A stretch of 41,851 nt of DNA, from positions 1-41,851 of the forward strand of contig JACQFP010000075.1 in the NCBI GenBank assembly GCA_016200005.1, in the 5' to 3' direction. The position numbers and the translations under genes are program-made. Each line of letters begins with the position of its first letter. Within the stretch, counting starts at the first letter, position 1. Below the pieces are notes generated by a model. That model saw nothing but the letters and a program-made list of their open reading frames with translations, did no database searches and had not been told where the DNA came from. The DNA is from Verrucomicrobiota bacterium. GTDB taxonomy: Bacteria > Verrucomicrobiota > Verrucomicrobiia > Limisphaerales > PALSA-1396. Positions 409 to 33,837 of the stretch are shown here, one piece after another.

Positions 409-419
409 GAATCATTGCG

Positions 420-4385: not shown

Positions 4386-4389
4386 TTGG

Positions 4390-4395: not shown

Positions 4396-4593
4396 ATGAG
4401 TTCTGGGCTGATAGGTAAATAAAATTCCGACGTTGACCGATTCTCACATGGTTGGGGGCAAATGCAAGGAAATAGACAAGCAGGTCACTTCGAAGTCGCA
4501 CCTCGCCCGCTTTGCCCGCTGCGGACCCTTGAATCGCGATTCGAGATAGCGGATGAATCTATAATTAAAGCTGCCAACGCTCATGCCCCTCTC

Positions 4594-5832
4594 TCAATAG
4601 GATCTGCCAATCGAATCCAGAAAACGCTCGTCCGGGGTTCGAAAGTCGCGCGATTTGAGTAGGGTTGCATAGAACTCGTTGACCGGTTCTATTCCGGTCA
4701 ATCGTTCCGTGCTGCGACGCTGACGTGCCGAGAGGACACGCTCCGAAACTGTGTTCATCGGTAGCGACACTTGTGGCGGCCAGAATGCCAGCGAACTGCT
4801 GAATCGCTTCAGACCAGACAGAAAATCGAGCGAACCGATTACCGCCTTGAACGCGGATATGTTACGAGCGAACTTGCCCGGTCGAGTGGCATGACGCACA
4901 GCGTCACCCACTCGTCCCGAAGCCGGCCTGTGAAGAAATGTAAATCTTGGCAAATTTACGGATGGCAAGGCACAATCGGTATCGCGCGGAGCAAAAACAG
5001 TGATCTGGTCGTCGTTGTGCACCAGGCGGAAGCCGCTTCGATAGAATTCTTTTGTAATCGTCGAGCGTGGCACAAACTTCTCGAAACCCCAACCCTCAAA
5101 CACAAACGCCTTCAATCCCTTTCCGCGAAGCATCTCGTGGGCGACCCGCAGCACAAACGCCATGCTGTTGGGGTGCATCTCCGCCAGCGCGTGATTGCAA
5201 GTGACCACGTCCGCGGCAGGCGTTCCCTTGTCGAGGAGCCGGTAGAACTCCCACCACGGAATATGCACGGGTTGTTTTGGAAGAAGCGTGCCGTCCCATT
5301 CCGCATCGGTAACCAATTCCTTGATGCGACCACCCGATGCGAAGTTCCACAGGTGGTTTTGCATCAGGTAAAAAGCCTGGGTTATATCCGATGCGGCATA
5401 GCTCCAACCGTTTTGAATAAACAAGCAGCCCAAGTAGCCAGAGCCGGGACCGATTTCACACACCCTCGCGGGTGAACCGCCGAAAATATCGTTGATGTGC
5501 CGATAGACGTTGAGCGCGCGGAGCAGGCTGCCGCGTGTCGTCAGGTTTCGCCCAAAGGACGCGTTACTGAATTCGCAGGCAAGTTGAGCGACGCGCCGCA
5601 ACAGAGCAAATTCCTGCTCGGTGATACCACCGCCGAACAGCGTCGCAAAATCCCGCTCGAATCGCGTCTCGTGCATGACATCGAGATACTTCCAAAGCTC
5701 TGAATCGCTGCGCAGCCTAGTGGGATATCCCTCGGAGGAAAACATCACCGGACTTACCATCTCCACGACCCGGTTGGGCAAGGCAGCCACAGCCGCGCTT
5801 TCCTTTATATTGTATTCTTCGACTGTCAGCAT
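4594..5832 (-). CDS. SAM-dependent methyltransferase, probably sugar-modifying
   Basis: A 412-residue protein with a class I methyltransferase fold. Motif I is visible as VCEIGPGSGYLG (about residue 125), followed by a post-I acidic region (YAASDITQAFYL). A long N-terminal helical part and a C-terminal extension flank the Rossmann core, as in putative sugar O-methyltransferases of surface-polysaccharide clusters. The substrate cannot be read from the sequence. It is the last gene of the minus-strand sugar cluster, 22 nt after the UDP-galactopyranose mutase homologue, so the two are probably co-transcribed. The ATG at 5832 has no strong Shine-Dalgarno sequence. Confidence 0.75.
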   Translation of the reverse strand: MLTVEEYNIKESAAVAALPNRVVEMVSPVMFSSEGYPTRLRSDSELWKYLDVMHETRFERDFATLFGGGITEQEFALLRRVAQLACEFSNASFGRNLTTRGSLLRALNVYRHINDIFGGSPARVCEIGPGSGYLGCLFIQNGWSYAASDITQAFYLMQNHLWNFASGGRIKELVTDAEWDGTLLPKQPVHIPWWEFYRLLDKGTPAADVVTCNHALAEMHPNSMAFVLRVAHEMLRGKGLKAFVFEGWGFEKFVPRSTITKEFYRSGFRLVHNDDQITVFAPRDTDCALPSVNLPRFTFLHRPASGRVGDAVRHATRPGKFARNISAFKAVIGSLDFLSGLKRFSSSLAFWPPQVSLPMNTVSERVLSARQRRSTERLTGIEPVNEFYATLLKSRDFRTPDERFLDSIGRSY

Positions 5833-5854
5833 GGTGTCATTGGTTTAGAGATGC

Positions 5855-6964
5855 TCACTTAAGCTTCAGCGCAACATCCATCGCCTGAGCGATGCAATCA
5901 TCGATGTCGATGTACCGATAGCTACCGGCCCGTCCAATGGAGAAAACGCCGTCGGGCATCAACCCAATATACTTTAGGGCAGTGCCCCGCTCGGATTTCA
6001 TCGGCATGGCGTAATGCTTGCCGTTCATGGACGGAAACTCAATGCCAATCAAGGTGGTGGGAGATTTGTGCTGCGTGAATTTTTTATACTCCACCAGGCG
6101 CTTGAATTTTTCCTGGCCGCTATAATACAAAAAGAAAACGTCGTCCGGGAAACATTGCTCCATCGGCAGGACGATGGGGTGAAAGTCCAGCCCGACGAAT
6201 CGCAACTCACCAAAGCAATAGTCGAACAGGATGTCCGGCGCGATTGTGTTGACGATGACATCAAACGTCCGCCATTCGCCCGACCATTTGACCCGTTTTT
6301 TGGGAATGTCGTACTGCTCAATGCGGGTGGAGAGCAGCACCTTGGCCCGAGCGGTGCCGATGGAGAAGTATTCATCGTAACCATTCGGCGCGAAGGGATA
6401 CGCCGAAATGGCATCATGAAATCCGTGACGCGGCCCTTCGTACAACAGCGCACCCTTGGAGGTCCACTCGGGCACGGCATCATCCAGTTCGCGGTTGTCA
6501 GAAATTTGCCACATCTTGTGGTTATAGTGTTTGGCAAATTTATCATAAAGCGTCGGGCCAACCGAGCCGAGCCAGTATTCCTCAACGTTGGTGGCGCGCT
6601 GGCCGGATTTGAGCTGGGCGAGTTCCTGTTTGATTTGATCGCGGTCGGGCATGCGCTCCACGTCGTCCACATGGATGGGGAAATTGTAGAACTCGGCGTC
6701 CCGCTCGACATACGTCAGGAAAACGTGTTTCAGCCGGCGCAACGGAACGTAGCGATTGAGAAAATCGAACAGGCGCTCGTCCCGCGTCAGAAAGTGGCGC
6801 GGTCCAAACGTGTGTGGGTGACCACCGTACCATTGCGTGCGCACCCCGGCGCCCAAAAAGGGCGCGACCTCGACCAAGGTGACATCCCAGCCGCCTTGCA
6901 GTTCGAGTTGATGCGCCGCAGCGCAACCCGCGAATCCACCGCCAATGATCAATGCTGATTTCAT
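5855..6964 (-). CDS. glf: UDP-galactopyranose mutase homologue
   Basis: The 369 residues match the flavoprotein mutase that converts UDP-galactopyranose to UDP-galactofuranose for surface glycans. Visible features are an N-terminal dinucleotide motif (IIGGGFAGCAAA), GPRHF for the usual GPHxFHT, a YNFP segment, HYNHKMW for the family's Y-x-x-K-x-W, a Y-F-G-E-L-R-F-like region, EYKKFT for the family's EYKHFT, and the C-terminal FAD motif GRAGSYRYIDID. Length is close to the family's usual 370-400. Several core motifs deviate, so a related pyranose substrate (for example a 6-deoxy or N-acetyl sugar) is possible. A 430-nt repeat-filled gap separates it from the upstream gene. Confidence 0.8.
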   Translation of the reverse strand: MKSALIIGGGFAGCAAAHQLELQGGWDVTLVEVAPFLGAGVRTQWYGGHPHTFGPRHFLTRDERLFDFLNRYVPLRRLKHVFLTYVERDAEFYNFPIHVDDVERMPDRDQIKQELAQLKSGQRATNVEEYWLGSVGPTLYDKFAKHYNHKMWQISDNRELDDAVPEWTSKGALLYEGPRHGFHDAISAYPFAPNGYDEYFSIGTARAKVLLSTRIEQYDIPKKRVKWSGEWRTFDVIVNTIAPDILFDYCFGELRFVGLDFHPIVLPMEQCFPDDVFFLYYSGQEKFKRLVEYKKFTQHKSPTTLIGIEFPSMNGKHYAMPMKSERGTALKYIGLMPDGVFSIGRAGSYRYIDIDDCIAQAMDVALKLK

Positions 6965-7040
6965 GTCTATTCGATATTCAGATTCTGCTTGTTGAAAAAC
7001 TTATACCAGTTGCCAAAAGTAATTTCCAATTAGTACGACG

Positions 7041-7337
7041 CCCCCCACCCGGCCTTCGGGCCGCCCTCTCTCATCGGATGGGGAAAAAATTCTCCGAACT
7101 TCGCATGCGCCTTGCGCCTCTGAACCGAAGGGCATGCGGATGGTCGCGTCAGCGTTTGGAGTGCGGCGACTTGTCGCCGCTTTGGGAAGGTGCCGACTCC
7201 ACAGCGGGTGTGTCTTCCCCACACGCCCCGTGCAACAGCGGCGACAAGTCGCCGCACTCCAAACGCTCCGCGCGTATCCGACAATTTGTACAGCATCGCG
7301 GTTCATGGAAAGGGTGGCCGAAGGCCGGGTGAGGGGC
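7041..7337. repeat. Nested intergenic inverted repeats (BIME-like) in the sugar cluster
   Basis: This fills most of the 430-nt gap at 6965-7394. The inner pair is a perfect 31-bp inverted repeat: 7151-7181 and 7237-7267. Each arm carries a small palindrome, GCGGCGAC-tt-GTCGCCGC, preceded by the head GGAGT. The outer pair, roughly 7043-7068 and 7310-7336, carries CACCCGGCCTTCGG and its complement. The nesting resembles bacterial interspersed mosaic elements. It may act as a transcript-stabilising or attenuating structure between two genes of one operon. No coding sequence is supported here. Confidence 0.8.
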
Positions 7338-7394
7338 TATTCATTTTTTAACCAGCAATCATTTGTGCCAACCATTCCATACACTAAACAGCCA

Positions 7395-8528
7395 TCAGCG
7401 CATGACACAGCTTACATATTGCTGACCGCGCCCCCACCATTTTCGAAATTCCGTCAACGCGCTTTCGCGGGCCATATCTGACTGGAGATAACGGATGAAG
7501 GAGTTCAGCGACCGATGAGTCTGGGGGCTTTGGTCGCGGAGCAGTTTTTCCAGAGCCAGCAACAACGGCAACATCTGCTGCCGTGAAAAAGTGGATTGGC
7601 CGCGTTCACGGGCGAAAACGCCGTCGTAGATTTTTTGCGAAATGTTTTCCGCGCGACGGACAACACTTCGTTCAGTTTGCGGCAACCGGACGCGAAAATC
7701 CATCAAGTTGAGGCCCAACTCGTAGTAGGAGTCCACGGCGAATGAGTTGTCAGCGCATCGGTATCCAACAATGCTCTTATACCAACGCCAATCGATCAGA
7801 AACCGCGGCGAGCAGCCCAACAATGCGCCACGATTACCAAGCGCGATCAAGGCTTGAGGAATCGAAAACAAGGGGCCAACCCACGGATGCAGGATTTGAT
7901 CAATGACCCAATCCTCCGGACGGCGGGACATGCCCGGCAACGCGGCGAGATCGGGGCGGAAAAAGCTCACCAGCCGAGCAACCTTCGCGTCAAAATCCGA
8001 AATGTCTTCGACCAGATTCCACGCCAGCCAACGGCGCAACATTTCCGGCAGCAGGGAAATGGGGTCCATACAGGTGAACACCAGCACGCCGCCCGGCCGA
8101 ACAAAACTCGCGACGTGCCGCAGGAAAGCGGGCGGATTTTTTTGTGTGGGAATGACTGCCTCGCACAAGACGATGTCGAATTTTTCCTTGGAGCGGAAAC
8201 TTGAGATCGAGGATTGATGGAGTTGAAAATTCAGGCGCGGACAATGTTGTTTGAGAACCCGGTTGGTGCTCTTGAGACTGGGAGGGTTGCCGTCCACCAG
8301 TAGGTAGCGGCTCGGTCCCAGCAATCCGGTCACGACCGCGTTGTGCCCGCTGCCGGGACCAAATTCCAATACTGAAGCCCGGTGAAAAGTTCCGGGCGGC
8401 AGACCGAGATGGCGATACAGGGAATGGCGACGTTCGATGTGGCGGCCCAAATCGGAAATGTCCTGCCGGGTCGGGATGATTCCGTGCGCGGAATAAAAAT
8501 GAACAAAAGGTGTTTTTGATGCAGGCAT
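7395..8528 (-). CDS. Class I SAM-dependent methyltransferase
   Basis: A 377-residue protein with methyltransferase motif I, VLEFGPGSGHNA (about residues 53-64), a post-I acidic residue (LLVDGNPPSL), a motif II-like strand (FDIVLCEAVIP), and the typical VRPGGVLVFTC strand. The C-terminal 200 residues are helical and family-specific. Substrate is unknown; the setting suggests a sugar or a nucleotide-linked sugar. It is separated from both neighbours by gaps of 248 and 430 nt that hold palindromic repeats, so it looks like a module added to the distal end of the cluster. Confidence 0.75.
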   Translation of the reverse strand: MPASKTPFVHFYSAHGIIPTRQDISDLGRHIERRHSLYRHLGLPPGTFHRASVLEFGPGSGHNAVVTGLLGPSRYLLVDGNPPSLKSTNRVLKQHCPRLNFQLHQSSISSFRSKEKFDIVLCEAVIPTQKNPPAFLRHVASFVRPGGVLVFTCMDPISLLPEMLRRWLAWNLVEDISDFDAKVARLVSFFRPDLAALPGMSRRPEDWVIDQILHPWVGPLFSIPQALIALGNRGALLGCSPRFLIDWRWYKSIVGYRCADNSFAVDSYYELGLNLMDFRVRLPQTERSVVRRAENISQKIYDGVFARERGQSTFSRQQMLPLLLALEKLLRDQSPQTHRSLNSFIRYLQSDMARESALTEFRKWWGRGQQYVSCVMR

Positions 8529-8606
8529 CGTCAGTGGAAATGCGGTTGCGATTTACGGTGAACAACCGAAATCAGCGGTTTAGCCGGAACGATGCAGACC
8601 GACGAA

Positions 8607-8754
8607 CCCCTCACCCTCGCCCTCTCCCCGTCCGACGGGGAGAGGGAACGTTTTCGCGCGCGGGGACGACACGCACCGTTCGGTAATTGGGCGCAACGTC
8701 GCTGGAGTTTCACCCTCTCCCCATCGGATGGGGAGAGGGTCGGGGTGAGGGGCG
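8607..8754. repeat. Inverted pair of CCCTCTCCCC palindrome units
   Basis: Two units face each other in the gap before the 7395-8528 gene. The left one (8607-8646) has CCCTCTCCCC-gtccgac-GGGGAGAGGG preceded by CCCCTCACCC. The right one (8711-8752) has CCCTCTCCCC-atcggat-GGGGAGAGGG followed by GGGTGAGGGG. Each can fold alone, and the pair can fold together. The outer arms at 7041-7337 contain related words (ccctctc-tcatcggatgggga), so these belong to one dispersed family. Confidence 0.8.
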
Positions 8755-8776
8755 TGTTCAACTGCATCCTTGCGCC

Positions 8777-9604
8777 TTAGTTTTCATCTTGCAGCGGGTT
8801 GTCAAGCCATGCTCGCGCCATGGATTCATGCCAGTGCAGGCTCACTCCTCCATCCACCAGAAGCTCTTGTCCGGTGACGAAGGAGGCCGCCGGACTCAAC
8901 AGAAAAGCCACCACTTGCGCGACCTCTTCCGCGGTGCCCATCCGACGCAGCGGCGTGATGCGCTGATACATCCGGTGGAGTTTTGGATTTTCCAGAAAAT
9001 ATTTTTTGGATACTTCCTTCAGCAATGTGCCGGGCGAAACGGCGTTCACGCGGATGCCTTGCGGTCCGAGTTTGAACGCGAAATACCGCACCAGTCCAAG
9101 CACGCCCGTTTTCGCTGCGTGGTACCCCTCGTCCTGCTCGTCCGCAACAAACCGCGCGGCGCTGGACGCCAGGATTACAATGGAGGCGTCCTGGGAATTG
9201 TCGAAGTGAGCGCAACTTTTTTGAATAACCTCCTTCGTGGCGGTCAGCGTGGAGGCCAGATTGCCCGCCCAGGCGTTTTCTTTTCCACGGTGACGTTGAA
9301 AAAAAACCAGCCCGTTTAATTTGCCCTGATCCGCAATCACGCGGGAAATCACCGGCTCCACGGCTTTTGCGTCGGTCACATCAGCGACGTAAGAATGAAC
9401 CGTCGAAACCGCAGGCGTCCCTCCTGTACGGGAAACCAGTGAGACCTTTGCTCCCAATTCTGTCGCCAGCCGCGTGAAGGCGCGACCGATGCCACGCGTG
9501 CCGCCGATTACCAGCAAGTGCCGGCCCTCCAAGCCACTCAAACTCGGCCTCTTCACCGTCGGGGATTTGGTGGATGCGTGTTTTGGTTTATTGGCGGCTT
9601 TCAT
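8777..9604 (-). CDS. SDR-family oxidoreductase (short-chain dehydrogenase)
   Basis: A classical-size SDR of 275 residues. The cofactor site is GGTRGIG (residues 34-40), catalytic Ser lies in VILASSAA, the catalytic Y-x-x-x-K is YHAAK, and the C-terminus has the usual FVTGQELLVDGGVS. The NNAG motif that normally follows strand 4 is replaced by FFQRHRG, so this is a divergent subfamily. It probably reduces a keto-sugar or keto-acyl intermediate made by the cluster. The ATG at 9604 is chosen. A TTG at 9649 would overlap the upstream C-methyltransferase stop by 4 nt and is possible, but it adds 15 residues that look non-conserved. Confidence 0.85.
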   Translation of the reverse strand: MKAANKPKHASTKSPTVKRPSLSGLEGRHLLVIGGTRGIGRAFTRLATELGAKVSLVSRTGGTPAVSTVHSYVADVTDAKAVEPVISRVIADQGKLNGLVFFQRHRGKENAWAGNLASTLTATKEVIQKSCAHFDNSQDASIVILASSAARFVADEQDEGYHAAKTGVLGLVRYFAFKLGPQGIRVNAVSPGTLLKEVSKKYFLENPKLHRMYQRITPLRRMGTAEEVAQVVAFLLSPAASFVTGQELLVDGGVSLHWHESMARAWLDNPLQDEN

Positions 9605-9645
9605 TCTCGCGGCGGAGTATAAGGAAAGTGTCAAGCGGACGCCGG

Positions 9646-10887
9646 TCAAATAATTTTCAATTCCGGCAATGGCAAAACATAATGACCCTGGCCTTGTCCG
9701 TAACGAGGATGTTTTTTTTGTATCTGTTCAAGATAACGCCAGGCGAAAACGACAACGTAGTCGGGCCTCGATTCGTCAAGTTTGCCTGCCGGCACGCACG
9801 GTATGTGCAGGCCGGGACTGAACTTGCCGTGCTTCCGCGTGTTGTCGTCGAACAATTCCTTCACCAACGAACCCAGCTTGAATTCGTAAAGCATCGTGGT
9901 GGTGCCGACGGACGCGCCGTAACCCATCACCGATTTGCCCTCGCGTTGGAAATCACCGAGGGCTTTTTGAAGTTTACCAGTCAGTTCATCCAAACGGCGG
10001 CGGCAGGTGGCGAGGGTTGCGAGCGCGTGGATTTGTTCCCGCTGCTCGATGGCGATCTGTTGGGCGACCGATGGATTGACCGCTCGCGTTCCGCCATTCC
10101 ATTGCACGGTCAAACGAATCGAGCCGCCCTTGTTGGAATTCCACTGGCTGTCTATCAACTGCAACCCGTGTCGATGGAAAAAGGCCTGCAACGGCACAAC
10201 GGAAAAATATGAAATGTGTTCGTGATAAATCGTGTCTATGAGTCCCTTGCCCACCACGTCGCGCCAATAGGAAGTTTCCATCACTAAAATTCCATCCCGA
10301 GCCAGCAATAGTTTGAAGCCTTGCATCACGGCGTCGAGGTCATCAATGTTGGCGAGCACGTTGTTGGCGGCAATGACGGTGGCGTAGCCATGTTCGCGCT
10401 GGACTTCACGGGCCAGTTCCTTGGTGAAATAGCGCGCGAGGGTCGGCACTCCGGCATTGGTGGCGGCGCGCGCAATTTCCGCGGCCGGCTCGATACCCAA
10501 CACGCGACAGCCGCGTTCTTTGAAGGCGCGCAGCATCGGGCCTTCATTACTCCCGATTTCAACGACCAATGAATCCGCCGCAATCCGGTGCTGGTTCATC
10601 AAATCCTCGGCGAATTTTCGAAAATGTTCCGGCAGTCCAACGGACACTGACGTGACGTACGGAAACGCCGGGTAGAGAAGATCGGGCGAGACCACGTCGC
10701 GCAGTTGAACCTGGCCGCAGTCTTCGCAGAGAAACAAATCCAAATTGAAAATCTCCTCACGCTCATTGCGACCGTCGGCGGTGACGTAATTGTCGCCGAT
10801 GGGTGTGGGCTGCATTGGCAGACCGGGCGTCAACTTGGCTGAGTGGCAGAGGCGGCAGGTTTTTCGCGTTTGAAAGGAGGCGGTCAT
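9646..10887 (-). CDS. Zinc-ribbon C-methyltransferase for a keto-sugar
   Basis: At 413 residues this matches the NovU/TylC3-type sugar C-methyltransferases: an N-terminal zinc-binding domain (CRLC at about 11-14 and CEDCGQVQL at about 54), a central SAM domain with motif I VVEIGSNEG, GIEPA after it, the signature IYHEHISYFS, and a C-terminal domain with GYGASVGTTTML and VVVFAWRYLEQI. Known members add a methyl carbon next to the keto group of NDP-4-keto-6-deoxy sugars. This implies the cluster makes a branched sugar, although the dTDP-glucose steps are not encoded in the window. It follows wbuC after a 49-nt gap filled with a heptamer repeat. Confidence 0.88.
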   Translation of the reverse strand: MTASFQTRKTCRLCHSAKLTPGLPMQPTPIGDNYVTADGRNEREEIFNLDLFLCEDCGQVQLRDVVSPDLLYPAFPYVTSVSVGLPEHFRKFAEDLMNQHRIAADSLVVEIGSNEGPMLRAFKERGCRVLGIEPAAEIARAATNAGVPTLARYFTKELAREVQREHGYATVIAANNVLANIDDLDAVMQGFKLLLARDGILVMETSYWRDVVGKGLIDTIYHEHISYFSVVPLQAFFHRHGLQLIDSQWNSNKGGSIRLTVQWNGGTRAVNPSVAQQIAIEQREQIHALATLATCRRRLDELTGKLQKALGDFQREGKSVMGYGASVGTTTMLYEFKLGSLVKELFDDNTRKHGKFSPGLHIPCVPAGKLDESRPDYVVVFAWRYLEQIQKKHPRYGQGQGHYVLPLPELKII

Positions 10888-10892
10888 GCAAT

Positions 10893-10955
10893 GGGCAAAG
10901 GCTAAAGGCTAAAGGCTGAAAGCTGAAGGCTGAAATTTAGCATTTAGACTTTAGA
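10893..10955. repeat. Degenerate tandem 7-bp repeat (AAGGCTA/AAGGCTG)
   Basis: Between the C-methyltransferase start and the wbuC stop the plus strand reads about nine consecutive 7-nt units of the type AAGGCTA, AAGGCTG, AAAGCTG, then TTTAGACT variants. The repeat extends into the last codons of wbuC, supplying its LKSK tail. Such low-complexity heptamer tracts can expand or contract by slippage. Confidence 0.75.
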
Positions 10956-11479
10956 CTTCGAAGAGTTGCCACGTCAGCGTCCATGCGCTCGAGAAAGCGG
11001 GTGCAGGCGGCGATATCCTGATCTTCCGGCGCCCACGCGGCAAACACCGTGTCCCCGGCGACAAATGGCCCGCGGGTGGTCTCCTGAAACATTCCAAGGG
11101 GGGTGATCGTGCGAAGCGTGTGAAAGCGTGTCTCGTGGAGCCGGAAGTAGGACGGGTAGCCCGACGCATAGGCGCCCAAACGGGTCGCGCCGGTCACCTT
11201 TCCGGCATCATCAAACACCACGACGTCCATCATCCCCTCGAGCATCTGGAACGATTTTGGTTTGTTCGTGTTCTTGTGCGGGCGCACGTAGGTGTCGCGC
11301 AGATTGACGATAATCATTTCATGCAACGGGTCGCTGACGTCGTGATGGGTGCAGAGACGGGCGCGTTTGCGCGGGTTGCGTTGCGTCTGCTGTTTGAGAA
11401 AAGCAAGATCGGCTGCGCTAAAGGTGACAATTTCGCCTTCGGCGTAAAAAACTTCGTCGGATACTGTCTTGATGTTCAT
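10937..11479 (-). CDS. wbuC: WbuC-family cupin-fold metalloprotein
   Basis: The 180 residues match the WbuC cupin family found in O-antigen clusters, whose function is not established. Visible features are the N-terminal NPRKRARLCTHHDVSDPLHE segment, then VRPHKNTNKPKSFQMLEGMM, which holds the cupin metal-binding His and Glu residues, and the later LHETRFHTL strand. It may act as an isomerase or dehydratase on a sugar intermediate, or be regulatory. The ATG at 11479 is chosen over a TTG at 11488. The start lies 9 nt after the zinc dehydrogenase stop, so the two are likely translated from one mRNA. Confidence 0.82.
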   Translation of the reverse strand: MNIKTVSDEVFYAEGEIVTFSAADLAFLKQQTQRNPRKRARLCTHHDVSDPLHEMIIVNLRDTYVRPHKNTNKPKSFQMLEGMMDVVVFDDAGKVTGATRLGAYASGYPSYFRLHETRFHTLRTITPLGMFQETTRGPFVAGDTVFAAWAPEDQDIAACTRFLERMDADVATLRSLKSKC

Positions 11480-11488
11480 GGTGAACAA

Positions 11489-12535
11489 TTAGGCTGGCGC
11501 ATTTTGCATGTTGATGAGGATGCGGCCCGCCTCGCCGGAGCGAAATGTGCGAATGGCTTCGTTGATTTCGTCGAGTTTGAATTCGTGAGTGAACAGTCCG
11601 TCGAGCTTCATCCGGTTCTGCCTAATCAGGCGAATGAGTCGCGGGATTTCCACGTCGGGAGCGGCGCTGCCTCCATGAGAACCTTTGAGCACTTTTTTGA
11701 AATGCAACGGCAGCGTGTAGATGCTGGCCTTGTCGCCCTTGCGCGGCACCCCGACCAGGATGGTTCGCCCATCGGAATGCGTCAGATCGTAGGCCGACTC
11801 GATCACACGAGCATTACCGGTGGTGTCCACCACGACGTCCGCGCCTTGCGGGCCGACGATTTCCCGGATGCGCTCACTCAAGTCCGGCGTCTTGCTGGAG
11901 TTGAACGTGTGGGTCACGCCCCATTGTTTCGCCAGCTCCATTTTAGCGTCCACGATGTCCACGCCAATGACGGGATACGCAGAAACCATTGCCGCGGCCT
12001 GGGCGATATTTAACCCGACACCACCGATGCCGAAGATGACAATGGACTGGCCGATCTTGAGTTGCGCGTCATTGTTGATGACCCCGATGGCCGTGGTCAC
12101 TGCGCAACCAAACAACGGTGCCAACCGCAGATCGAAATCCGGCGGGATGACGGTTAAACGGTTCTCGGATACAATGGCTTCGTCGTTGAAAGTGGTCACC
12201 CATCCGGCGTTGACGGTGCGTCCGTTCCAATCGTATTTGGGCGTTTCGCATTCCAGCCCGGCACTGGGCCGCCAATGGAGCACGACGTGATCGCCGGGCT
12301 TGACGGTTTTGACGCCGGCACCAACTGCCGTGACTGTTCCGGAACCTTCATGTCCCAGGAGATGCGGGAGAAATTTGTCCGGGCCTTTGGCGCCTTCGAT
12401 CTCGTTGATCTGCGCGCCGCAGATACCGCTGTAATGGATTTTGACGTGCACCTGGCCGAAGGAGAGTTTCTCCGGCACGCGCAATTCGGCCACGACCAGC
12501 GGCTTGTTGTTTTCAACCAGGATCGCCGCTTTCAT
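11489..12535 (-). CDS. Zinc-binding medium-chain dehydrogenase lacking the structural zinc loop
   Basis: A 348-residue MDR-superfamily dehydrogenase. Catalytic zinc ligands are visible: Cys in YSGICGAQ, His in LLGHEGSG, and Cys in LFGCAVTTAIG. The NAD(P) site is IFGIGGVGLN. The four-cysteine structural zinc lobe of classical alcohol dehydrogenases is absent; the region reads HWRPSAGLECETPKYDW. It probably oxidises or reduces a sugar alcohol or keto-sugar of the cluster. The start at 12535 is supported by a 4-nt ATGA overlap with the upstream methyltransferase stop and by the canonical MKAAILVENN opening; the frame is open for 20 further codons upstream. Confidence 0.88.
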   Translation of the reverse strand: MKAAILVENNKPLVVAELRVPEKLSFGQVHVKIHYSGICGAQINEIEGAKGPDKFLPHLLGHEGSGTVTAVGAGVKTVKPGDHVVLHWRPSAGLECETPKYDWNGRTVNAGWVTTFNDEAIVSENRLTVIPPDFDLRLAPLFGCAVTTAIGVINNDAQLKIGQSIVIFGIGGVGLNIAQAAAMVSAYPVIGVDIVDAKMELAKQWGVTHTFNSSKTPDLSERIREIVGPQGADVVVDTTGNARVIESAYDLTHSDGRTILVGVPRKGDKASIYTLPLHFKKVLKGSHGGSAAPDVEIPRLIRLIRQNRMKLDGLFTHEFKLDEINEAIRTFRSGEAGRILINMQNAPA

Positions 12536-13197
12536 TCGAAGTAGATGAATTCGTAATCGCCGGTGTAGCCGAAGTGTTGGAAGAGCCAGATCCACTCCTC
12601 TTTATCGAACAGCGATTCGGCCGTCAGCGCCCAGCACTCCAGGTTGAACATCTCCAGTTCGTTGCGATAACTCTCGACCACGATGTATTTGTTTTTGCCA
12701 ACACGCTCGATTTCCTTGAGGGCGGCTTCCAATTCGAAGACCCGCAGGTTGTGCAGCGTGGTCAGCGAGATGACGAGATCAAAGTGTTTGTCACCGAACG
12801 GATACGGATCTTGCGCGCGATGCTGGAACGTCTGGCCTTTGAATTCCGGAAGTCTCGAAGCAAGGCCGTGTTTGGAAACATCGAAACCAACCAGTTCGAG
12901 TCCCGGCTCGATCAGTTGCATTTCGTACAGGAGAAACGCCTTGCCGCAGCCAACATCGAGCACGCGCGACCCGGCCTTGAGTCCATAAATATCAATCAGC
13001 GCCTGCGCCACCGGCTTCCAGCGTCCGGGAAGGTATTTGTAGCCGCCGTAGCCAAACCGCCGGTCGCCGTCCCAATAGTCGGCCTCATATTCCTTGGCCT
13101 TCAGCATGCAGGTGACTTTGTCGTCCACCATGCGCGCGAGGTAATCGCGTTTGGTGGCCTTATGCAGCGGCGTAACGATGTTCAGCAATCGGCCCAT
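12532..13197 (-). CDS. Class I SAM-dependent methyltransferase
   Basis: A 221-residue methyltransferase with motif I VLDVGCGKAFLL (about residue 80), a post-I acidic residue (LVGFDVS), an FDLVISLTTLHNL strand, and KYIVVESYRN near the end. The N-terminal WDGDRRFGYGGYKY segment is typical of small methyltransferases in polysaccharide clusters. It overlaps the dehydrogenase by 4 nt and follows the transketolase C-subunit after a 53-nt gap. The acceptor, sugar hydroxyl or amine, is not evident. Confidence 0.8.
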   Translation of the reverse strand: MGRLLNIVTPLHKATKRDYLARMVDDKVTCMLKAKEYEADYWDGDRRFGYGGYKYLPGRWKPVAQALIDIYGLKAGSRVLDVGCGKAFLLYEMQLIEPGLELVGFDVSKHGLASRLPEFKGQTFQHRAQDPYPFGDKHFDLVISLTTLHNLRVFELEAALKEIERVGKNKYIVVESYRNELEMFNLECWALTAESLFDKEEWIWLFQHFGYTGDYEFIYFE

Positions 13198-13250
13198 GAT
13201 ATTTTTGGTTCGGAATCTTCGGGCAACCCCAGCGGCTGCCCGCGGTTCAG

Positions 13251-14180
13251 CTACCGAGTATGAGAAAGTTCCTGGACGACGGAAACAATTTTTTCAGCCG
13301 TGATGTCGTAACGCTTCATCAAGCTGGCCTGTGAACCGTATTGGTCGGGGAAAACATCCGGGAGGCCGATCCGCCGAAAGCGTTTTAGCGTTTTGAAATC
13401 GGCCTCCGCCATTACTTCCGCCACGGCGCTGCCCAACCCGCCGATGACAGTGTGTTCCTCCACGGAAACAATGACCGGCACGCGGCCGGCCAGTTCCAAA
13501 ATTTTTTCTTGATCGAACGGCTTTACGGTCGGGACATGTAAGACGGCGGCTTTAATCGTGGCAGCTTCCAACGAACTCGCCGCATCCAGTGCAGCCTTTA
13601 ACGTGATTCCGGTGGATACGATCAATGCGTCCGAACCTTCTTTCATGGGAATGGCTTTGCCAATCTCGAACGGCACACGATCATTCGTCACAACCGGATC
13701 GCCGCCCTTGCCGAGACGAATGTAGATCGGGCCACGATGGTCCACCGTGGTCGGCATCATGCGCCGCATTTCTTCGGCATCCGCCACGGCGAGAATGGTC
13801 ATGCGCGGCAGCGCGCGGAAAATGGCCAGATCCTCGATGGCCTCGTGCGTCGGTCCGAGCGGGGCATAGACGACGCCGCCGCCGTTGGCGATGAGGCGGA
13901 CGTTGGCGTTATGCAGGCAGAGGTCGAGGGCGACCTGTTCGAAACATCGGCGTGTCAGAAACGTGGCGATGGTGTTGACGTAAACAATTTTTCCTTCGAG
14001 CGCCAACCCGGCGGCGACGCCAACGATGTTCGCCTCACTTACGCCTTCCATCAGGAAACGGTCGGGCATTTCGGCCTTGAATTGCTTCAACGTGCCGACG
14101 CCGAGATCCGAGCCGATGAAAAAAATACGCGGGTCCTTCTTGGCCAGCTCATACACCATGTCCAAACAGGTCTTGCGCAT
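13251..14180 (-). CDS. Transketolase C-terminal subunit (Pyr and C domains)
   Basis: At 309 residues this is the second half of a split transketolase. The pyrimidine-binding domain carries the catalytic Glu in GVSEANIVGVAAGLA, then ANGGGVVYAPLGPTHEAIED, and the C-terminal domain has VSVEEHTVIGGLGSAVAE. It pairs with the N-terminal subunit encoded immediately upstream; the TAATG junction overlaps by one base. Together they should transfer a two-carbon ketol unit with thiamine diphosphate. Split transketolases occur both in central metabolism and in specialised sugar pathways, for example for branched apulose phosphate. The position inside a sugar cluster points to a dedicated role here. Confidence 0.92.
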   Translation of the reverse strand: MRKTCLDMVYELAKKDPRIFFIGSDLGVGTLKQFKAEMPDRFLMEGVSEANIVGVAAGLALEGKIVYVNTIATFLTRRCFEQVALDLCLHNANVRLIANGGGVVYAPLGPTHEAIEDLAIFRALPRMTILAVADAEEMRRMMPTTVDHRGPIYIRLGKGGDPVVTNDRVPFEIGKAIPMKEGSDALIVSTGITLKAALDAASSLEAATIKAAVLHVPTVKPFDQEKILELAGRVPVIVSVEEHTVIGGLGSAVAEVMAEADFKTLKRFRRIGLPDVFPDQYGSQASLMKRYDITAEKIVSVVQELSHTR

Positions 14181-15019
14181 TACGCCTTTACCTCCAACTC
14201 AGCCAACAGGGATTTGATTTCCTCCGGAGTGACCTTGTTTTTGTGGTGCCAGTTCAAATTGTTCTCCACGAAGCTGACGCCCTTGCCCTTGATGGTGTGG
14301 CAGATGATAGCACTTGGCTTTTCGGCGTCGAACGGCGTCCGTTTCAACGCGGCTCGCAATTGTTCGACGCTGTGGCCGTCCACTTCCTCGACCGCAAAGC
14401 CGAACGCGCGCCATTTGTCCGCAAACGGTTCCATGTCCAGCACCTCGTAAGTCGTGCTGTAGGATTGTTGTTTGTTGTAGTCCACCAGCACGGTCAGATT
14501 GCTCAACTTGTGTTTGCCGGCGCTCAGAGCGGCTTCCCACAACGAACCTTCGTTGGATTCACCGTCGCTCGCCACGACGAAGACGCGATGGTTGGCCTGT
14601 TCGTAACGGGCGTTCAGCGCGAATCCGACGCCAATCGGCAGCCCGTGACCCAGACTGCCGGTGGACGCTTCCACGCCCGGGACTTTGCCGTATTCGGGGT
14701 GGCCGCCCAAAATCCCGTCGGTCTTGCAGAATTTCCACAACTCCGCCTCCGGAAAGAAACCCTTCTCCGCGAGCAAGACGTAAAGCGCGAGGCAGCCGTG
14801 GCCCTTGCTCAAAATGAATCGGTCGCGTTGCGCTGAGCGTGGATTTTTCGCGTCGTAGCGCAACACGTCGTCGTAAAGCACGCGCAGAATTTCAACGAGC
14901 GAGAACGCCGAGCCGACGTGACCACGCCCGCCTTTTTCCAACATGCGGACGATCTGGCAGCGCAGCTCGCGCGAGCGCCGGTCCAGCGGGGTGGTGTTGA
15001 CGGGCGGCGGTTTAATCAC
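14180..15019 (-). CDS. Transketolase N-terminal subunit (TPP-binding PP domain)
   Basis: A 279-residue diphosphate-binding subunit of a split transketolase. It shows GGRGHVGSAFSLVEIL near the start, SKGHGCLALY, GSLGHGLPIGVG, and the TPP/Mg motif SDGESNEGSLWEA. The gene begins with GTG at 15019 and overlaps the stop of the upstream kinase gene by 8 nt. Its stop overlaps the start of the partner subunit. The tight coupling suggests a fixed stoichiometry. It makes ketose phosphates such as sedoheptulose 7-phosphate in known systems; the substrate here is not known. Confidence 0.92.
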   Translation of the reverse strand: MIKPPPVNTTPLDRRSRELRCQIVRMLEKGGRGHVGSAFSLVEILRVLYDDVLRYDAKNPRSAQRDRFILSKGHGCLALYVLLAEKGFFPEAELWKFCKTDGILGGHPEYGKVPGVEASTGSLGHGLPIGVGFALNARYEQANHRVFVVASDGESNEGSLWEAALSAGKHKLSNLTVLVDYNKQQSYSTTYEVLDMEPFADKWRAFGFAVEEVDGHSVEQLRAALKRTPFDAEKPSAIICHTIKGKGVSFVENNLNWHHKNKVTPEEIKSLLAELEVKA

Positions 15020-16082
15020 GGTAAGGGAAGCGTTCGTATTCGTGGCGAATCCGGTTCAGGATCTGGCGGGCCTTGTCCAGTTGTTGCATTTGAAGAGAGG
15101 CACGATCCGGGGCTGCGACGGCGGCGAACTGGCGGCGCTGGAATTGATCCGGCAGGAACTCGTTGAGAAAAATCATGCACCACTTGAGGCCGAAGAGTGG
15201 ATAAAGGCTCTCCACGCGCTGGAGCAGATCGGGCCAGTCCGAAAAACATCGGAACATGCCCGAGGCAAATTTCTTTTTCAAAGCCGGCGACAAGTCCATG
15301 GCCGGGTGCAACAAAAAGTCCGCAATCATCTTCGCCGGATCATCCCAACCGAAATACTCGAAGTCCAGAAAGATCATCCGGCCGTCGCGCTGGCGCAGGG
15401 CGTTGTGAAAACCGAAATCCGACGGACTGAGCGTGCGCTGCTCCCAACTCAATTCCTCTGCAAAAGCGCCGCCTGCGGCTTTCAACCGCGATTCGCTCCA
15501 GTGCGTCACCTGTTCAAACAGTGGCGTCAAGTCCGTTTCGAGAAAGTCGCGCAAGGCGTGGTAAGCGGGCGTGTTTCCTTCGGCGGCGCGAAGGCGTTGC
15601 AAGCGTTGGCGGACGTTATCCACCACCTGACCCGCGGCAAAAAAAGCTTCGGACGCTGCGCCCAACTTTCGGCTTTCGGGTTTCCGGCTGAGCTCACGCA
15701 GCCGGCACAGCAGGCCCAGGGCGGCGGTTAGCTCCGCGTCACCGGCCTGACCGGGAAGAAGTTTGTCGCCTTCGATGAATTGATAAACCGCCCAGCCCAG
15801 TTCGTGGTCAGCGGCGATGGGCTGTGGAATATCGCGGAAGCCGCTCGCCCAGAGATAGACAAAGCTGTTGTATTCGGTGGCGAGCCGGTCGCGCTGGTCG
15901 GAGTGGTGGCGAAAATAAACCTTCAAGGCAAAATGCTGCGCGCCTTCCAATGCCACTTCATAAACCTGGCTATTGCGTCCGCCGCCAATGCGTTCGACGC
16001 CGGACACGTTCCGGTTGAGCAATCGGGTCAGCGCCGCACGCATCTCGTCCGGGCGCAGTTCACTTCGCGGCGTTGAAGACAT
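15012..16082 (-). CDS. APH-type phosphotransferase, probably a small-molecule kinase
   Basis: A 356-residue protein of the aminoglycoside phosphotransferase/choline kinase fold. Visible features are a glycine-rich loop (IGGGRNSQVYEV), the ATP-binding Lys in FALKVYFR, the catalytic loop LSPSDFGFHNAL, and the metal-binding FLDFEYFGWDDP. The usual His-Gly-Asp of the catalytic loop reads Ser-Pro-Ser-Asp, but the Asp and Asn are kept. It probably phosphorylates a sugar or a sugar alcohol rather than an antibiotic. It overlaps the HAD gene upstream by 23 nt and the transketolase N-subunit downstream by 8 nt. Confidence 0.82.
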   Translation of the reverse strand: MSSTPRSELRPDEMRAALTRLLNRNVSGVERIGGGRNSQVYEVALEGAQHFALKVYFRHHSDQRDRLATEYNSFVYLWASGFRDIPQPIAADHELGWAVYQFIEGDKLLPGQAGDAELTAALGLLCRLRELSRKPESRKLGAASEAFFAAGQVVDNVRQRLQRLRAAEGNTPAYHALRDFLETDLTPLFEQVTHWSESRLKAAGGAFAEELSWEQRTLSPSDFGFHNALRQRDGRMIFLDFEYFGWDDPAKMIADFLLHPAMDLSPALKKKFASGMFRCFSDWPDLLQRVESLYPLFGLKWCMIFLNEFLPDQFQRRQFAAVAAPDRASLQMQQLDKARQILNRIRHEYERFPYRD

Positions 16083-16674
16083 AGTCGAAAATTTGTGTCC
16101 AGTCAGCCAGGGGTATCACGGCGGGCAGGTTGTGGGGCGCTTCGTGTCGTCCGAACAGAACCTGGACGACAAAATGCGGAAATGCAGGCTCAAGAAAAGT
16201 TTCCTCCAGGTCGTCAATGAAGCAGGTGCAACCCGTTTCCCGGATAAAGCGAATTTTCTCCTGCCGCGTCTCGCCGAAATGCACGTGCTCTGGCGAAAGC
16301 CCGATGCGTCGCGGATCGAAGAAGCCTTGCGCTGCCAGCCATTCGCGGGCGGATTGCTGGAGATCGAACGCCGGTCCCGAAACAGCCGTGCGGGTCTTGT
16401 GGCTGATGATGTAAACCGGCAACCGGTGCCGGACTGCGTGGGTGAAAAATTCAAGCACGCCCGGGAACGGCTGCGCTCCCGCCATGTGCGGGCCGTAAAC
16501 GTAACCCTGCAACTCCGTCCAATCCCTCTCGCGGTTCTGGTTCCGGAGGAAGTCGCGAATGTCGTTCTTGCGGGCGGGCAGTGTGGCGGGAATTAGCCCT
16601 CGCTCCACGGCGACTGAATGAAACAGTTCGTCGTATCGAACGATCGTGTTATCAAAATCGACGCCGAGGACCAT
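16060..16674 (-). CDS. HAD-superfamily phosphatase
   Basis: At 204 residues this is a compact HAD hydrolase with motif I GVDFDNTIV (nucleophile Asp6 and Asp8), motif II IISHKT, and motif IV CFIDDLEET. A helical cap of about 80 residues separates motifs I and II (ARKNDIRDFLRNQ onwards). A phosphosugar substrate is likely from the setting; it is not the GmhB type. The start overlaps nothing upstream (33-nt gap), whereas its 3' end overlaps the kinase gene by 23 nt, so the phosphatase and kinase are probably coupled in translation and act on the same compound or on successive ones. Confidence 0.82.
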   Translation of the reverse strand: MVLGVDFDNTIVRYDELFHSVAVERGLIPATLPARKNDIRDFLRNQNRERDWTELQGYVYGPHMAGAQPFPGVLEFFTHAVRHRLPVYIISHKTRTAVSGPAFDLQQSAREWLAAQGFFDPRRIGLSPEHVHFGETRQEKIRFIRETGCTCFIDDLEETFLEPAFPHFVVQVLFGRHEAPHNLPAVIPLADWTQIFDYVFNAAK

Positions 16675-16707
16675 GGTATCTTCACGAATCGCCGCGATGC
16701 CCCGGCG

Positions 16708-17727
16708 CTACTTTACTTTCAACTGCTGCATCCGCTTGATGTTGGAATATATCGGGTTGGTGAACGGGTCTTTGATCAGGCCGCGGCGATACGCATCGGC
16801 GATGTCCTTGATCGCATCCTCAATCGTGTAACGGGTTTCAAAACCGAGCACGCGTTTCACTTTCTCCGAATTGACGTGATACGAGCGGTTGTCATCCGAG
16901 GGCGTGTATTCCAGTTCGATGTTGGGATCGCCAAGCGTTTCGCGCACGAGTTTGGCGATGTCCTCCACGGAACGATTTTGGAAACCGACGTTGAAGGCTT
17001 CACAATCAATCTTCGCCCCCGGCGCTTCCAGGAAAGTGTGATACGCACGCACCATATCTTTGATGTGCAAGTTGGGCCGGAGTTGTTTGCCGCCGAAGAT
17101 GCGGATCTTGTGATTCACCAGCGCATGGATGGTCAGAATGTTGACGGTCAAGTCAAGGCGCAGACGCGGCGCGTAACCACAGACCGTTGAGGGACGGACG
17201 ATGACGCGCTCCATGCCGTTGACCTTCGAATGCGCGAGCAAATCCCTTTCGCAATCGAGTTTGAACCGGGAGTAGTCCGTCAGCGGCTTCGGTTCGGCGT
17301 CTTCGCGCACGTCAGGCTCTTCTTTCACGCCGTAAATACTCGATGAACTGGCGTAGATGAACCGCCGCACGCCCTGGTCAATGGCGCCCTGAAGCAAGCC
17401 GGCAAATGCGTCGTAGTTGATCGATTTGCCGAGCTTGAGATCCAGCTCGAAGCTCGGATCGTTGGAGATGCAGGCCAGATGAATCACCGCGTCCACGCCT
17501 TTCAACTCCTGTTTCAACCGCGCGCTGTCTCGAATGTCCAACTCCAAAAGCTCAAGTTGCGGATGACGATTGCATTCGCCAAAGACTTCGCGTCCATACC
17601 AAAAGAGATCGACCACTTTGACGCGGTAGCCCTGCTGCAGAAGATCCGGCACCAACGCGCTGCCGACATACCCCGCTCCGCCGGTGACCAGAATCGAACC
17701 AAACCCGTTCGGATTGTTGCTGCTCAT
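16708..17727 (-). CDS. NAD-dependent epimerase/dehydratase (extended SDR)
   Basis: A 339-residue extended SDR with NAD motif TGGAGYVGS, HLACISNDPS, Ser in ASSSSIYG, and catalytic YSRFK. The RPSTVCGYAPR and NLHIKDMVRA motifs are typical of NDP-sugar epimerases and dehydratases. It should act on the nucleotide-activated sugar of the cluster, as a 4- or 3-epimerase, reductase or decarboxylase; which one is not readable. The ATG at 17727 fits the family's usual start. A TTG at 17778 would add 17 residues with no match to the fold. Confidence 0.87.
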   Translation of the reverse strand: MSSNNPNGFGSILVTGGAGYVGSALVPDLLQQGYRVKVVDLFWYGREVFGECNRHPQLELLELDIRDSARLKQELKGVDAVIHLACISNDPSFELDLKLGKSINYDAFAGLLQGAIDQGVRRFIYASSSSIYGVKEEPDVREDAEPKPLTDYSRFKLDCERDLLAHSKVNGMERVIVRPSTVCGYAPRLRLDLTVNILTIHALVNHKIRIFGGKQLRPNLHIKDMVRAYHTFLEAPGAKIDCEAFNVGFQNRSVEDIAKLVRETLGDPNIELEYTPSDDNRSYHVNSEKVKRVLGFETRYTIEDAIKDIADAYRRGLIKDPFTNPIYSNIKRMQQLKVK

Positions 17728-17842
17728 AGATTGCGACTTCAAGGCGGGACAGCTTATTGGCGGGTCGGCTTTAGTCAATTCGTTTGTCCCGCCTCGCAGG
17801 ACGGACGCCTGGTGAAAGGCGAAGCGCGCGGAGCACAGAGAA

Positions 17843-19372
17843 TCATTTCATCAGCGAGGTGATGTGGCGGAAAAGGTTGGTCGGTTCGATGAAACTGCGA
17901 TTACCCATGATGGTGCAGGCTTCGGCGCCGACCACATTGGCGATGAACCCCAGCACCAGGGGCGGAGCGTCGAGCGCGACGCAGGGGGCCGTGATCGCGA
18001 GCACGGCGTCACCGGCACCGACGCGGTCCACCACGCGGATGGCGAAGGCCGGCACCTGGACGATTCCCTGCGCGCGATCATGAATCAATACGCCGTAACT
18101 GCCTTGAGTGACCAGCAGCTTCCGGCTCCTGACTCTGCCGGCGAGTTGTTGGACAAGATGGTCCAGATTCGCCGTCAACTGCCGGGCATCGAGCCGCAAT
18201 TCCATCTCGCCGATGGTGACATAGTCGGCGCGCGAATATTTCGAAATGGTGTTGAACCCCCGGTTGCCGGCGTTGGTTTGTGTGGTCACCGCGAGGAACT
18301 TGGCCTTTTCCGACACGAGCCGTTTGACCTGTTCGGTGATCAACTCATGCCCGTAGTCGGCCAGGATTACCACATCATACCGGGGCAGGAGCTGCTCCAA
18401 GCGCTGGCAGAACTCAAGCTCGACCGCGGCTGGTAACTCCTCATCGCGCATGACGTAAACTTCAAACAATTTGCCGCCAGGGTATTCCTGGAGGAACCGT
18501 TGCTTGATGATGGTCGGGTAGCCAGGCAGCCAGACAAAATGGCAGGCCACATTGCTGTTCAAGTTGGCGCGGATGAAATCCTCGCAGGAGTTCATATCGC
18601 CGAGCGCGCTCAACACGGCCACTTCGTCGCAGAAGTTGGACACGTGGTTGGCGATGGCCAGCACGCCCCCGGTGTATTGCTCCGTGCGGTCGTGTTGCGC
18701 GGCAAGGATCGAGTCCTTCCCGGATTTGCCCAGAACGGTGCAGAACTGGTACTGATCGATGATGGTCTCGCCGAGGACCAGGACCTTGAGTTTGCGGATG
18801 GCTTGGAGGTGGCCGAAGACTTCTTCGGGGGTGTGCTGATTGCGGAATTGCTCTAGGAAGGTCTTGGTTTCCGGCGTGAAGACTTCCATGAAGCGGTTGA
18901 TGAGCGTGGACGCGCTATAGGTCTCTTCATCCGTGTAAACGAGCTTGCCGCCCACGCCGATGATGGCTTGCTCCTCCCGTTCGATGGCGTCGGAATGGTC
19001 GCGCTTGCCCGATTCACGAACCAGCCCTTTCACGAAGAGGCTGGGTTTGAGCAACTGAATTGTTTCAACGGCGGTCGGCCATTCGTTGATGGCCACGTAA
19101 TCCACGCAGGCCAGCGAGGCCAGGGCCTCCGCCCGCAGTTTCTCAGGAAAAGCGGGGCGATGTGGTCCCTTGCGCACAAAGCTGTCCGGAGTCAGCGTCA
19201 CGACCAGCACGTCGCCCAGCTTGCGCGCCGCCTCCAGGTGTTTGATATGCCCGATGTGAAGCAGATCGAAAACTCCATGGCAGTGGACGATACTTTTCCC
19301 CTGCTCCCGAAGCGATACCAGGGTTTTGGCGAGGTCTCCCAGTCGCTTGACTTTATTGCTGGTCATTTCCAT
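17843..19372 (-). CDS. Nucleotidyltransferase-PfkB kinase fusion (HldE-like, reversed order)
   Basis: A 509-residue two-domain protein. Residues about 27-165 form a cytidylyltransferase-like domain with HCHGVFDLLHIGH (HxGH at 39-42). Residues about 190-509 form a PfkB/ribokinase-type sugar kinase with VLVLGETIIDQY, GGVLAIANHV, ILADYGHELI, and the catalytic GAGD at 452-455. In E. coli HldE the kinase is N-terminal and the adenylyltransferase C-terminal, so this order is swapped. It could phosphorylate the anomeric or another carbon of a sugar phosphate and then activate it with a nucleotide. It is the first gene of the cluster, and the downstream gap to the epimerase is 115 nt. An ATG at 19366 is an alternative start. 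Confidence 0.88.
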   Translation of the reverse strand: MEMTSNKVKRLGDLAKTLVSLREQGKSIVHCHGVFDLLHIGHIKHLEAARKLGDVLVVTLTPDSFVRKGPHRPAFPEKLRAEALASLACVDYVAINEWPTAVETIQLLKPSLFVKGLVRESGKRDHSDAIEREEQAIIGVGGKLVYTDEETYSASTLINRFMEVFTPETKTFLEQFRNQHTPEEVFGHLQAIRKLKVLVLGETIIDQYQFCTVLGKSGKDSILAAQHDRTEQYTGGVLAIANHVSNFCDEVAVLSALGDMNSCEDFIRANLNSNVACHFVWLPGYPTIIKQRFLQEYPGGKLFEVYVMRDEELPAAVELEFCQRLEQLLPRYDVVILADYGHELITEQVKRLVSEKAKFLAVTTQTNAGNRGFNTISKYSRADYVTIGEMELRLDARQLTANLDHLVQQLAGRVRSRKLLVTQGSYGVLIHDRAQGIVQVPAFAIRVVDRVGAGDAVLAITAPCVALDAPPLVLGFIANVVGAEACTIMGNRSFIEPTNLFRHITSLMK

Positions 19373-33574: not shown

Positions 33575-33576
33575 GG

Positions 33577-33821: not shown

Positions 33822-33837
33822 GGTCGCGGTGGTTGTT

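Follow-up and report, generated by a model that had tools for sequence, protein, structure and literature searches.

A Verrucomicrobiota gene cluster with a split transketolase of altered substrate pocket: a possible route to a modified nucleotide-activated heptose

The window analyzed here is the complete contig C75 (JACQFP010000075.1; 41,851 bases) of a Verrucomicrobiota genome (GCA_016200005.1; 6.54 Mb in 87 contigs), whose near relatives include Limisphaerales metagenome-assembled genomes (MAGs) with the isolate names 'palsa' and 'bog'. According to the open reading frame (ORF) listing of the window, 14 minus-strand genes span positions 4594-19372, among them the two halves of a split transketolase. 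The original prediction had counted 15; the same-strand run with mostly short gaps or overlaps between neighbors stands, and the gene count is 14. The genes are transcribed in the order NTK, EPI, HAD, APH, TktN, TktC, MT3, ADH, WbuC, CMT, SDR, MT2, UGM-like, and OMT1. Going by rising coordinate, the intergenic spacings are 22, 430, 248, -4, 49, 0, -64, 53, -1, -8, -23, 33, and 64 bases, and some of the overlaps would be reduced if internal ATGs were the true starts. Because of the lengths of their homologs, EPI likely starts near 17727 and ADH near 12535.

NTK (17843-19372) is a single protein composed of a nucleotidyltransferase of the HldE C-domain type followed by a PfkB kinase (CTP_transf_like and PfkB in Pfam/NCBIfam). 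Both the nucleotidyltransferase HxGH motif (in GVFDLLHIGH) and the PfkB GAGD motif are present. As in HldE (RfaE), both domains match TIGR02198/TIGR02199/PRK11316; unlike in HldE, their order is reversed, and the scores lie far below the curated NCBIfam equivalog cut-offs (144.9 vs 521, 102.8 vs 345, and 97.3 vs 181.5 bits). Since the genome has separate homologs of each half elsewhere (C34 and C22; C46), NTK is an additional copy. EPI (16708-17778) is an extended SDR of the NAD epimerase family with the catalytic YxxxK present as YSRFK. Its best match in the PDB is 6vo6 (122 bits), which we take to be Cj1427, a GDP-heptose C4-dehydrogenase.

HAD (16060-16674) and APH (15012-16082) are assigned by fold. 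HAD has no Pfam match at E<=1e-3 and none at E<=5; APH has none at E<=1e-3, and its sole match at E<=5 is a sub-cut-off Choline_kinase. A PDB sequence search gave nothing useful for either. The AlphaFold model of HAD (predicted local distance difference test, pLDDT, of 94.7) matches HAD phosphatases in Foldseek, including deoxyribonucleotidases and AlnB, and the protein is placed in an uncharacterized HAD phosphatase family. The model of APH (pLDDT 88.5) matches choline-kinase/aminoglycoside-kinase folds, with N-acetylhexosamine 1-kinase at rank 31; together with its SPSDFGFHN loop and DFE motif, it is a predicted small-molecule kinase of the choline-kinase/aminoglycoside-phosphotransferase fold. 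With moderate TM-scores of about 0.5-0.65, the predicted folds are clear and the substrates are not. The models thus support the HAD phosphatase and APH kinase of the original prediction.

TktN (14180-15019) is the N-terminal half of the split transketolase (Transketolase_N, PF00456), and TktC (13251-14180) is the C-terminal half (Transket_pyr, PF02779, and Transketolase_C, PF02780), with G416, L424, and K474 in human numbering. They are followed by the core S-adenosylmethionine (SAM) methyltransferase MT3 (12532-13197; methyltransferase domain in Pfam/NCBIfam), the Zn-dependent medium-chain dehydrogenase ADH (11489-12595), a WbuC-family cupin (10937-11488; TIGR04366, 107.9 bits vs a cut-off of 42), and CMT (9646-10887), a sugar C-methyltransferase of the TcaB9/D-mycarose 3-C-methyltransferase family. 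Accessory genes encode an SDR oxidoreductase (8777-9649; Pfam/NCBIfam), the SAM methyltransferase MT2 (7395-8528; Pfam methyltransferase domain), a UGM-like flavoprotein and possible pyranose/furanose mutase (5855-6964), and the divergent SAM methyltransferase OMT1 (4594-5832; Methyltransf_23). The UGM-like protein is a distant GLF/UGM homolog, passing the Pfam GLF cut-off and failing that of the equivalog TIGR00031 (88 vs 303.75 bits). Pfam/NCBIfam hence confirm the fusion, epimerase, split transketolase, Zn dehydrogenase, WbuC, C-methyltransferase, SDR, and UGM homolog named before; of the three further methyltransferases, MT2 and MT3 have their domains, and OMT1 stays below the curated cut-off. 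A motif check found the expected motifs in NTK, EPI, APH, HAD, CMT, SDR, MT3, MT2, and OMT1. The two longest gaps, flanking MT2, contain inverted repeats (7151-7267 with 43-nt arms, 88% complementary; 8582-8777 with 65-nt arms, 77%) that resemble small palindromic repeat elements; Rfam has zero matches within the window.

Eight of these genes (NTK, EPI, TktN, TktC, HAD, APH, MT3, and ADH) form a recurrent module, often with WbuC and CMT alongside. A scan of named genomes with HAD gave 10 loci, from two Limisphaerales MAGs, an Opitutaceae, another Verrucomicrobiota MAG, two Oscillatoriales, a Dehalococcoidia, a deltaproteobacterium, an Acidobacteria, and a Magnetococcales MAG, which carry combinations of the eight core genes in varying order. 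A plasmid of Solidesulfovibrio carbinolicus carries SIS, NTK, HAD, APH, TktN, TktC, and MT3. In the same-genus genome G001, 13 of the 14 genes lie on the single contig L029 (OMT1 being cut by the locus end), and NTK is found on a different contig; here we assign, by inference, L029 to G001 and L030 to G011. HAD usually adjoins APH, and both are fused in some genomes: they form a single open frame in L036 and L064 and lie within frames of 594 and 556 amino acids (aa) in G014 and G026. Overlapping frames caused ORF picking to lose the TktN rows of L036, L060, L069, L071, and L113 and the TktC of L123; tblastn recovers TktN in those five. Likewise, the HAD of L037, L038, and L065 was hidden in the first gene maps and is present in the later map. 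Against a phage collection, TktN gave 37 records, all below 60% identity and mostly unannotated. Literature searches aimed at this gene set, judged by titles and abstracts, did not find a description of it.

Presence of HAD coincides with presence of the cluster-type TktC. In a phylum sample of 387 evenly drawn genomes, for which the profile scans scored up to 8 (HAD) and up to 5 (TktC) first-look candidates per genome, 12 genomes have a match to the HAD profile at E<=1e-10. The top 12 genomes of the TktC profile are exactly these 12 (416.7-499 bits); the 13th match has 354.5 bits. Six of the 12 (G000, G182, G199, G234, G268, and G395) supplied rows to the TktC profile. In the fair test, the other six are, without exception, the top six of the remaining 381 genomes (random-draw probability ~2e-13, uncorrected for relatedness). 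HAD-APH and TktC are both present in G219, G324, and G442, yet on different contigs; two of these unlinked HAD-APH pairs (L055 of G219, 2085-4830; L057 of G442, 228-3211) are followed by ORFs of the same lengths, 180 and 177 aa, which in L055 have zero Pfam matches. Among eight relatives chosen by NTK match, six have HAD plus a TktC of 377 bits or more; the other two, G030 and G037, lack HAD. Chance clustering of the gene set was rejected on account of its recurrence in other phyla and of this co-occurrence. That homologs are largely linked, rather than scattered, and recur in other phyla supports the dedicated nucleotide-sugar route originally predicted.

To compare active sites, the residues listed for human transketolase in PMC8016368 were mapped via the genome's own full-length transketolase, a separate 668-aa frame on C65. 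Since this enzyme exists, the split pair is not the organism's only transketolase, and a role as its central one was rejected. Neither outcome named as refuting the original prediction, scattered homologs or a sole transketolase pair, therefore applies. Assignment of the pair as DXS or an E1 dehydrogenase was rejected as well, as both halves score best to a transketolase model, though TktC also matches DXS models. TktN and TktC of the window hold the catalytic and thiamine diphosphate (ThDP)-binding residues H37, H110, H258, and E366. The substrate residues R100, K244, R318, S345, H416, D424, and R474 are C, H, R, G, G, L, and K, respectively, so that R318 alone is kept. Rows L073 (same contig as L030) and L059 (cut-off copy of L130) were removed before the counts that follow. 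In the cluster TktC, H416 is G and R474 is K in 27/27 distinct rows, S345 is G, R, or A, D424 is L, N, or Q, and R318 is kept in all 26 rows with data. In the cluster TktN, neither R100 nor K244 is kept in any of the 22 distinct rows, and H37 and H258 are kept in all of them and H110 in 20. The canonical substrate pocket of the cluster transketolase is, as judged from these alignments, rebuilt with the catalytic residues kept.

The neighborhood of NTK points to heptoses. SIS_2 (GmhA-type) and/or GmhB-type genes lie near NTK in L031, L032, L033, L034, L037, L039, L056, L065, L071, L072, L111-L113, and L130, according to gene maps with Pfam on examples, and L063 has an NTP_transferase within the cluster that is HddC-like by label (the labels GmhB, HddC, and EPI2 were assigned from family matches). 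Because NTK homologs adjoin such genes, the product of NTK is most likely a nucleoside diphosphate (NDP)-heptose, and the same neighbors point to ordinary sedoheptulose-7-phosphate as the starting sugar. For Cj1427, production of GDP-4-keto-heptose is reported in Campylobacter, where a C4-dehydrogenase and pyranose/furanose mutases of C. jejuni work on GDP-heptoses (PMC10680097). Given the context of NTK and the relationship of EPI to 6vo6, an activated keto-heptose is the likeliest intermediate. Separately, in L040 (Azospirillum oryzae plasmid, 7338-16868), an NTK homolog adjoins SIS, SDR, and epimerase genes, an E1-alpha/transketolase-C-type pair, and two aminotransferases; here, another ThDP enzyme lies beside a heptose-type module.

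The reading we favor, at a confidence slightly short of even, is that the product of the cluster is an extensively modified heptose in nucleotide-activated form and that the transketolase works at a late step, where an activated keto-heptose gains two carbons. Gene content, cross-phylum linkage, HAD/TktC co-occurrence, and residue changes are the observations behind it, from which we infer all substrates and the order of steps. A GmhA-type SIS enzyme, for which this genome has a candidate on another contig, would isomerize sedoheptulose-7-phosphate, and the kinase half of NTK would phosphorylate the heptose at C1. A GmhB-type phosphatase, again with a candidate elsewhere in the genome, would remove the C7 phosphate, and the nucleotidyltransferase half of NTK would activate the sugar; both roles of NTK are suggested by its families and neighborhood. 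EPI, to go by its closest solved relative, would oxidize the NDP-heptose to a keto sugar, onto which the split transketolase would move a two-carbon ketol unit; the result would be a C-branched sugar with at least nine carbons. The branched sugar would then be reduced or oxidized by ADH and SDR and methylated by MT3, MT2, OMT1, and CMT, with a possible ring contraction by the UGM-like enzyme. HAD and APH would work together as phosphatase and kinase in connection with the transketolase step; as a guess, HAD may dephosphorylate the donor and APH re-phosphorylate the leftover aldose. Branching of keto sugars has been proposed for split transketolases (PMC12247030, section 9). A further-reaching version, possible though doubtful, is that a TktC subfamily with G416 and K474 acts on nucleotide-activated keto-heptoses to give a two-carbon-branched nine- or ten-carbon surface sugar, that the HAD/APH phosphate loop permits unphosphorylated ketose donors, and that the pathway has spread unrecognized through several phyla.

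Several observations weigh against late branching of a keto-heptose. GmhA and GmhB are absent from the window, and the candidates for them on other contigs score 120 and 116 bits, short of the respective family cut-offs of 209 and 150 bits. The module is incomplete in places: L037 has no APH in its gene map, HAD and APH are on different contigs in G019, and G030 and G037 have heptose genes, MT3, and a G416/K474 TktC (313-315 bits), yet no HAD. NTK was not seen in the stretches examined of L035, L038, L058, and L060, of which L038 and L058 end at contig ends and the gene map of L038, an 8.5-kb contig, contains only HAD, APH, TktN, and TktC. In two cluster TktN rows, K244 is replaced conservatively by R. 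According to the review, keto-sugar branching by transketolases lacks an in vitro demonstration (PMC12247030, section 9). The residue changes, too, are not exclusive to the cluster. They were compared with 22 hand-picked other split TktC rows, comprising 6 of the 302 plasmid records matched, one row from the Solidesulfovibrio locus, and 15 rows from the TktC profile scan; the unannotated Streptomyces plasmid loci L075 and L077 served for residue comparison only. Of these rows, 14 have G416 and three keep H416. Pocket changes are hence common in aligned split transketolases, and G416 alone is no mark of the pathway. K474 occurs in one of the 22 and is, by this comparison, the more specific mark. 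In a tree leaving out L059, L073, L074, and DXS, the cluster TktC rows form three supported groups (8, 16, and 2), among which CDP-linked and SDR-linked rows are interspersed on weakly supported deep branches. In this tree, the cluster rows thus do not form one clade (2 changes), and K474 may be ancestral or convergent.

Two split transketolases that lie beside CDP-glucose 4,6-dehydratase, in contrast, speak for action on a keto sugar. The sole outside row with both G416 and K474 stems from a Paenibacillus cellulosilyticus plasmid, in a cluster with glucose-1-phosphate cytidylyltransferase, CDP-glucose 4,6-dehydratase, and a TktN fused to an Epimerase domain. In L127 (G141, 5156-9931), a split transketolase with G416 and R474 lies between relatives of CDP-glucose cytidylyltransferase and CDP-glucose 4,6-dehydratase. 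A second Verrucomicrobiota group of split transketolases, near an SDR gene (L114-L122, L124, and L125), has G416, L424, and Y474 in 11/11 rows.

Among the alternatives, an upstream transketolase, which would make or trim a special ketose phosphate for NTK, HAD, and APH to phosphorylate, dephosphorylate, and activate, survives best, and we consider it unlikely. It has a parallel in lincosamide sugar synthesis, which uses transaldolase chemistry upstream, and it would fit the many loci in which HAD and APH adjoin the Tkt genes, the fused HAD-APH frames, and the invariant R318. However, the equivalents of R100, K244, S345, H416, and R474 are lost, GmhA/GmhB-type genes would already consume sedoheptulose-7-phosphate, and the epimerase-TktN fusion of Paenibacillus sits in a CDP-keto-sugar cluster. 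The original prediction had likewise put the transketolase first, building or cutting a ketose phosphate; the lost substrate residues and the GmhA/GmhB-type neighbors of NTK disfavor this order. In a second alternative, which is quite unlikely, ADH would turn a terminal alcohol group of the activated heptose into an aldehyde and the transketolase would extend the chain there by two carbons, so that the higher-carbon sugar would be linear rather than branched. Aldehydes are normal transketolase acceptors, and ADH accompanies the Tkt genes in many loci; yet it is unmatched in the stretches examined of L031, L033, L038, L039, L061, L071, and L072, all with the Tkt pair, and the CDP-glucose 4,6-dehydratase contexts suggest a ketone at C4. 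That two independent modules are combined, one for an NDP-heptose and one, HAD-APH-Tkt-MT3-ADH, for a separate small glycan substituent, is very unlikely: HAD-APH and the Tkt/NTK cluster are indeed separate in G219, G324, G442, and G014, NTK-SIS of Solidesulfovibrio lies ~13 kb from HAD-APH-Tkt-MT3 on the opposite strand, and L038 has no NTK, but Tkt, NTK, SIS, EPI, and MT3 share one stretch in G219, G324, G442, and G104, and HAD presence equals that of the cluster-type TktC in the phylum sample.

Late action on an activated keto-heptose can be set beside several known systems. The GDP-heptose pathway of C. jejuni comprises GmhA, HddA, GmhB, HddC, Cj1427, and later enzymes. It resembles the proposed route in that a heptose is activated and then oxidized by a C4-dehydrogenase, in having pyranose/furanose mutases, and in GmhB lying outside the cluster (PMC10680097). 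In contrast, the NTK fusion would here stand in for HddA/HddC, and the additions comprise a split transketolase, HAD, APH, MT3, Zn-ADH, and C-methyltransferase; transketolase is unmentioned in the available text of PMC10680097. The miharamycin and amipurimycin clusters of Streptomyces also contain a split-gene transketolase for sugar modification, proposed to add a hydroxyacetyl group to a keto sugar (PMC12247030, section 9), and a survey cited there has 13 such sequences, all from streptomycetes. Compared by description and not by sequence, those are antibiotic clusters, whereas the present one is surface-sugar-like, has a heptose background, and occurs in several phyla. In yersiniose synthesis, the ThDP enzyme YerE likewise lengthens an activated keto sugar by two carbons; it is of the decarboxylase type and uses pyruvate (PMC12247030), unlike the two-subunit transketolase-type enzyme described here. 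The best PDB match to both TktN and TktC is the split transketolase of Carboxydothermus hydrogenoformans (6yaj/6yak), which, read from alignments, retains the canonical substrate residues that the cluster enzymes are without. The gene set is, as far as its sequences go, a variation on NDP-heptose modification outside the canonical transketolase and HldE families, whose defining tests it passes only in part.

The original prediction had found neither dTDP-glucose genes nor a recognizable glycosyltransferase, and among the 14 genes Pfam/NCBIfam found no family of either kind (the scan covered these genes and not the rest of the genome). Next to the interval, and divergent from it, the plus-strand gene at 19538-22165 encodes a multi-pass membrane protein with 9 strongly hydrophobic segments that is weakly YfhO-like (E=0.0087, below cut-off, C-terminal end only). 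In three genomes of the same taxonomic order, homologs of it lie on the NTK-bearing contigs: G001 (76% identity), G011 (L030, 49%), and G015 (47%); none was found on that of G019 (L068). The protein may, tentatively, be a candidate membrane transferase; inside the interval, the absence originally noted holds. Recognizable transferases occur near other loci (GT9 in L035 and Glyco_trans_1_2 in L064). Elsewhere in the window, a 1325-aa protein (420-4397) has three LamG-like and three Ig-like domains and divergent InlB repeats, and a partial homolog lies at one end of the same-genus NTK contig L066. At 31530-39959, three PQQ-like beta-propeller proteins and a transglutaminase-like protein, recognized by eye, are clustered.

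Strong signals for antigenicity and recognition can come from branched and higher-carbon sugars, many of which are, to our knowledge, made by enzymes as yet unknown. According to PMC12247030 (section 9), transketolases have been put forward as branching enzymes for streptomycete antibiotics, and none of them has been characterized in vitro. The gene set described here, with its residue signature, defined partners, and occurrence across phyla, makes this chemistry testable with purified enzymes, and two uncharacterized, usually adjacent proteins, HAD and APH, gain a pathway context. If true, branched or longer surface sugars would here probably be built in an uncommon manner, with a rare activated heptose remodeled by an altered transketolase.

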